A stretch of DNA of 32,884 nucleotides from Vulcanimicrobiota bacterium (GTDB taxonomy: Bacteria; Vulcanimicrobiota; Vulcanimicrobiia; Vulcanimicrobiales; Vulcanimicrobiaceae): the NCBI GenBank assembly GCA_003136655.1, contig PLFC01000020.1, positions 20,460 through 53,343 on the forward strand. The letters run 5' to 3'. Shown here one piece after another: positions 28,582 to 28,647 of this stretch. Below the pieces are notes generated by a model that had not been told where the DNA came from, made no database searches, and saw nothing but the letters and a program-made list of their open reading frames with translations. Position numbers and translations under genes: made by a program. Positions within the stretch are counted from its first letter, which is position 1, and each line of letters begins with the position of its first letter.

Positions 28582-28618
28582 ATAGGTTCTACCTATGAAT
28601 TCAATCGGCTGAATCGTC
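28582..28618 (+). promoter_or_regulatory. OxyR-type binding site upstream of katG
   Basis: ATAGGTTCTACCTAT (28582-28596) is a perfect inverted repeat that fits all ten fixed positions of the OxyR half-site consensus ATAG-n-t-nnn-a-n-CTAT. Seven bases later, 28604-28618 is a much weaker second half-site (ATCG...CGTC). The site ends directly against the proposed -35, the geometry of OxyR-activated promoters. No oxyR gene is in the window. Confidence 0.6.
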
Positions 28619-28647
28619 TGGACCGATGCGCGCCGAAGCGCTACCAT
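28619..28647 (+). promoter_or_regulatory. Probable katG promoter
   Basis: TGGACC (28619-28624), 17 bases, then TACCAT (28642-28647). Both hexamers match the consensus at four of six positions, as expected for an activator-dependent promoter. The same TACCAT -10 occurs in the promoter at 10837. A start site near 28654 favours the katG start at 28694 or 28664. Confidence 0.5.

Follow-up and report, generated by a model that had tools for sequence, protein, structure and literature searches.

The window, the 32,884-nucleotide stretch of DNA that was analyzed, carries a catalase-peroxidase gene (katG) on its plus strand, preceded by a predicted OxyR operator and an adjoining promoter:

27007-28503, plus strand: upstream gene, encoding an M28-family peptidase with a PA domain (Pfam PF04389 and PF02225)
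28582-28596, plus strand: predicted strong upstream OxyR half-site, ATAGGTTCTACCTAT (10 of 10 fixed consensus bases; unique in the genome at ≤2 mismatches)
28597-28603, plus strand: 7-bp spacer between the half-sites, GAATTCA (15-7-15 register as in relatives; spacer region shared with the site before this genome's own oxyR)
28604-28618, plus strand: candidate promoter-proximal half-site, degenerate, ATCGGCTGAATCGTC (5 of 10 fixed bases; degenerate side as in relatives)
28619-28624, plus strand: putative −35 element, TGGACC (starts at the first base after the operator; TTGAAC or TTCACA in relatives, where the position is conserved)
28642-28647, plus strand: putative −10 element, TACCAT (separated from the −35 element by 17 bp; OxyR2-type relatives have GTGC-TACCAT/TACCGT)
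28654, plus strand: predicted transcription start, ∼7 nt past the −10 element and placed from its position (leader of ∼40 nt)
28679-28682, plus strand: ribosome-binding sequence GGAG, assigned from sequence (GGAAGGA is aligned in the katG of G028, the closest KatG relative)
28694-30895, plus strand: katG, catalase-peroxidase, 733 amino acids from ATG 28694 (identified by NCBIfam; start by N-terminal comparison)

The katG product is intact, scoring 1239 bits with PRK15061 and 1110 bits with TIGR00198, each exceeding the NCBIfam cut-off. Translation probably begins at ATG 28694, with GGAG upstream, because MQDTV at this position aligns with the N termini of KatG proteins from relatives (MDNTIVEL and MDNTLAEL); it is this start that gives the short transcript leader. 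GTG 28649, the start of the longest open reading frame, was rejected: relatives align at ATG 28694, and GTG 28649 lies two bases past the −10 element, so that it could not be the katG start if the promoter is right. The upstream peptidase gene is on the same strand as katG; thus, there is no divergent regulator at this locus. Elsewhere in the window, inspection by eye found a protein (22818-25649) with a long TPTQTPTQAP Pro/Thr repeat followed by a region resembling sedolisin-type (kumamolisin-like) proteases, and, downstream of katG on the minus strand (30969-31604), a product that has no Pfam match and resembles general-stress YflT-like proteins. An Rfam search of the window returned no matches.

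A preliminary description of this DNA had proposed that an OxyR-type half-site fitting every fixed consensus base lies before katG. Positions 28582-28596 do belong to the half-site consensus, ATAGnTnnnAnCTAT, matching it at all 10 fixed bases. The same description called the 15-mer a perfect inverted repeat, which is correct for the 6-base arms (ATAGGT/ACCTAT) but not for the middle TCT, which is asymmetrical. ATAGNTNNNANCTAT has a single match in the window, whereas 100 dinucleotide-preserving shuffles gave none, and the 15-mer is the sole copy in the 3.45-Mb genome, with up to 2 mismatches allowed. The looser pattern ATAG-N7-CTAT is found at three places in the genome versus 5 per strand for a backwards-read control pattern, and is therefore not enriched; because it is so rare, the odds of its accidental occurrence within the ∼110 bp before katG are of the order of 1e-4. 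This lack of genome-wide enrichment, and the fact that just one half-site is good, speak for a chance palindrome without a regulator, but the position, register, and uniqueness of the site, its scores with two independent matrices, and its link to oxyR (see below) make such an accident extremely improbable.

A weaker second half-site at 7-base spacing, also claimed earlier, would be 28604-28618. The whole 37-mer (28582-28618) has the highest score in the window, 15 of 20 fixed bases; as a yardstick, the top 37-mers before E. coli katG and oxyS reach 14 and 16 of 20, respectively. A matrix for the second half-site only favors a start 9 bp upstream, at 28595, over 28604. In OxyR-linked relatives, the promoter-proximal half-site is likewise degenerate in its outer arm (ATTGCTTCTATTGGC type), so a weak second half-site may be the normal form here rather than a cause for doubt. 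The promoter was expected to begin at the next base with a 17-bp spacing, and TGGACC-17-TACCAT at 28619-28647 agrees with this and with the promoters of relatives, although its hexamers (4 of 6 and 4 of 6 bases) fall under the scanner's 9-of-12 threshold. With transcription predicted to start at ∼28654, the 37-mer would extend from about −72 to −36, where LysR-type activators that contact polymerase at the −35 element usually sit.

In the genome, which is 76% complete (3.45 Mb), the LysR substrate domain has five matches, among which three proteins are complete and one gene is broken. A search for the oxyR gene that the preliminary description presupposed found it on another contig (L035:1459-2385, minus strand), with the key residues of its product kept. 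The protein is 43% identical to E. coli OxyR by alignment and retains C199, C208, H198, T100, and R201 (E. coli numbering); the redox cysteine pair, C199/C208, is located in GHCLREQTLELC when aligned to E. coli, and the recognition helix, VSQPTLSGQIRKLED, is identical to that of E. coli. Its LysR-type helix-turn-helix (PF00126) and substrate (PF03466) domains exceed Pfam cut-offs, and its best PDB match is a full-length OxyR chain, 4x6g (E = 9e-62). The best NCBIfam model is PRK11151, the OxyR equivalog, at 263 bits, under the curated cut-off of 329, a score that is not a defining biochemical feature of OxyR; because the cut-off is missed, we call the protein an OxyR-type two-cysteine regulator, not a certified equivalog. 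Given the completeness of the genome, the assembly may lack an additional regulator, of the LysR type or another. The same genome has a RuBisCO large subunit-like frame (L037:1-1057) divergent from a LysR (CbbR-like) gene (1164-2042); taken with the genome size, this pair may point to a soil lineage living on trace gases or autotrophically, possibly Eremiobacterota.

The katG operator shares sequence with a second site, which lies before oxyR:

28597-28607, plus strand: 11-mer GAATTCAATCG, common to the katG operator and the oxyR upstream region
L035:2397-2433 (contig C44 of the window's genome, G000): OxyR-like 37-mer, 11-47 bp before the oxyR start codon, with CGATTGAATTC in common with the katG operator

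In the 3.45-Mb genome, GAATTCAATCG has exactly two exact copies, one in the katG operator and one directly before oxyR, and its bases have the same register in both 37-mers (CGAT-TGAATTC on the katG minus strand). With a matrix made from relatives only, the top site of the oxyR locus is ATCGGTGGAAACGAT-TGAATTC-TTTCGCACCATCGGC, read away from oxyR (17.1 bits). The presence of this 37-mer suggests that OxyR may autoregulate its gene. The site also looks like the remnant of a lost divergent oxyR-katG arrangement, because its orientation is that of the oxyR-katG operators shared in relatives. We rejected GAATTCAATCG as the mark of a larger regulon, since the genome holds only these two exact copies. 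A combined katG and oxyR pattern found no other match in the genome at ≤3 mismatches; because the pattern is derived from these two sites, this null result shows only the absence of a third close copy. The AhpC family (PF10417) was not found in the genome; a ferritin/Dps-family gene is present, and inspection of its 5′ region by eye showed no OxyR-like site.

Related genomes of the family contain two types of OxyR. Where OxyR1 is present (its recognition helix is mostly QPTLS[AG]Q) and the katG promoter is readable, a 37-bp site lies in the same register before katG, as in ATAGGCATTACCTAT-actatct-ATTACTTCTATTGCC, with TTGAAC directly after it and GATAAT beyond a 17-bp spacer; in several such genomes, oxyR is divergent from katG across the operator. 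When seven OxyR1-relative katG sites, without that of the window, were made into a matrix, position 28582 ranked first of 65,696 positions at 18.9 bits; the next independent site in the window scored 7.6, and 8 of 1.40 million background positions reached 18.9. OxyR2 relatives (L003, L006, L010, L015, and L028) have the helix Q[AS][AT]LSEQVRKLE and the operator ATCGGTnnnrCCnnn-N7-...AAATCGAT, for example ATCGGTTTTGCCTTA-caaaccc-TTTGGATAAATCGAT, set directly against a −35/17/−10 promoter; a matrix from three OxyR2-type relatives again put 28582 first in the window (18.1). Between the two types, the operator appears to have changed in step with the recognition helix.

Conservation upstream of katG, to which the preliminary description had tied its reading, is seen in the recurrence of the same register and adjoining −35/17/−10 promoter in those members of the family whose genomes encode OxyR. 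What is kept is the motif and not the exact letters of the 15-mer: G028, the closest KatG relative (77%), has ATAGGTTTTGCCTTA in the same register, with 11 of 15 bases as in the window. We rejected a classification of G028 as site-less; there is no site near its katG, but one lies ∼280 bp further upstream. OxyR is present at E ≤ 1e-50 in all 14 family genomes with OxyR-type katG operators and in none of the 13 with Fur-type or unclassified katG promoters, in a set of non-independent genomes and with several of the sites also used in building the matrices (G028, G049, G117, G120, and the window were outside the first matrix). G045, which has OxyR but a main katG split across contig ends, was left outside both counts. 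Beyond the family, 24 of the nearest KatG loci were scanned: 22 are without a site of the window's type, and the possible exceptions are L087, which one matrix scores at 19.0, and L057, with 16 of 20 consensus bases 301 bp upstream.

In other members of the family (L004, L005, L007-L009, L011, L012, and others), katG is divergent from a Fur-family gene and has conserved GAGTGACATTCACTTTCA boxes. The earlier suggestion that a Fur-type regulator could own the window's site has some points in its favor: this is the arrangement in the sister KatG clade, the window's genome has two Fur-family genes, and TGAATTCA lies inside the operator. Yet we found no Fur/PerR box at the window's katG promoter, where the family katG Fur-box matrix gives −6.6 (rank 802 in the window) compared with 24-36 for most boxes in relatives; neither Fur gene adjoins katG, and the 15-7-15 layout is un-Fur-like. 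Ownership by a Fur/PerR-family repressor is thus very unlikely.

Somewhat less remote, but still improbable, is ownership by a second regulator of the OxyR2 type, whose gene would have been lost or fall in the quarter of the genome that the assembly lacks. The window's KatG is sister to that of G028 (99/97), where oxyR2 is divergent to katG and the operator is in the same register; moreover, the window site's high score with the OxyR2-type matrix and the GC-TAC form of its −10 element point the same way. Against this, no OxyR2-type gene was found, the genome having two complete LysR genes and one broken one beyond OxyR; the site before the oxyR that is present has 11 identical bases in register; and perfect ATAG...CTAT arms are the form found in E. 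coli and with OxyR1.

The assignment of the katG site to OxyR appears largely supported by these comparisons, and it is highly probable that 28582-28618 is an OxyR tetramer site and 28619-28647 a sigma-70-type katG promoter under its control. The genome's own two-cysteine OxyR, encoded elsewhere, would bind the strong upstream and weak promoter-proximal half-sites; peroxide would oxidize C199/C208, causing the tetramer to re-set on four ATAGnT-like quarter sites, where it would touch RNA polymerase at the adjoining −35 element and turn on katG. Through the similar site before oxyR, OxyR would also control its own gene. For E. coli OxyR, the oxidized tetramer has been described on four contiguous ATAGnT elements (PMC5002191). 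We infer OxyR binding, redox sensing, and autoregulation in this genome from its sequence. Activation of katG by peroxide is most likely, by analogy, rather than repression; OxyR represses catalase in some bacteria, such as Corynebacterium diphtheriae (PMC3306370), and the sign of control is therefore not fixed by sequence.

In a maximum-likelihood tree of KatG, the window and G028 pair together, and these two join seven Fur-controlled KatG proteins (99/98), far from the KatG clade of OxyR1-using genomes. The OxyR of the window's genome is outside the OxyR2 clade (100/100) and goes with the OxyR1 proteins by identity (48-52% versus about 40%). Because the KatG and OxyR placements disagree, the window appears to combine the katG of one branch with the OxyR of another, under an operator with perfect ATAG/CTAT arms. 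We tentatively suggest, as a scenario that may well prove otherwise, that control of katG has been exchanged within the family among a Fur-family regulator and two OxyR types, and that the window is a re-matched case: a katG of the OxyR2/Fur branch with an operator like those of E. coli, serving an OxyR1 that is encoded elsewhere and whose own promoter keeps the site once shared with a divergent katG. At 76% completeness, either loss of OxyR2 or its absence from the assembly would fit.

The predicted site resembles the operators that OxyR binds at E. coli katG and oxyS (Toledano consensus; PMC5002191) in its 15-7-15 register and ATAGnT quarter sites, in consensus fit (15/20 versus 14/20 and 16/20), in its place upstream of the promoter, and in the recognition helix of the regulator; it differs in that the −35 element starts right after the 37-mer and the outer arm of the promoter-proximal half-site is degenerate. 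Agrobacterium and other Rhizobiales have divergent oxyR-katG pairs with one shared operator (PMC11975290). Relatives within the window's family have this arrangement with the same operator layout, whereas in the window's genome katG and oxyR are on different contigs, each with its own site, and the gene upstream of katG is the same-strand M28 peptidase. The Fur/PerR-controlled katG genes of sister lineages are homologous and have a similarly short promoter region, but their 19- to 21-bp GAGTGACATTCACTTTCA box and divergent Fur-family gene are both absent in the window.

A literature search found no work on OxyR in the presumed phylum of this bacterium. As predicted from sequence, regulator, operator, and promoter are all identified for katG here, which would extend a textbook peroxide switch to a little-studied lineage known here from assembled genomes alone. 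The switch itself is of a familiar kind; its exchange for Fur-family control in relatives is the moderately interesting and mildly surprising part, because the nearest relatives of this KatG belong to lineages that use Fur-family control or another OxyR type. Since homologous katG genes in relatives are controlled either by a Fur-family protein or by a second type of OxyR, the family may offer a natural series for change of regulator at a stress gene and for joint change of operator and recognition helix.
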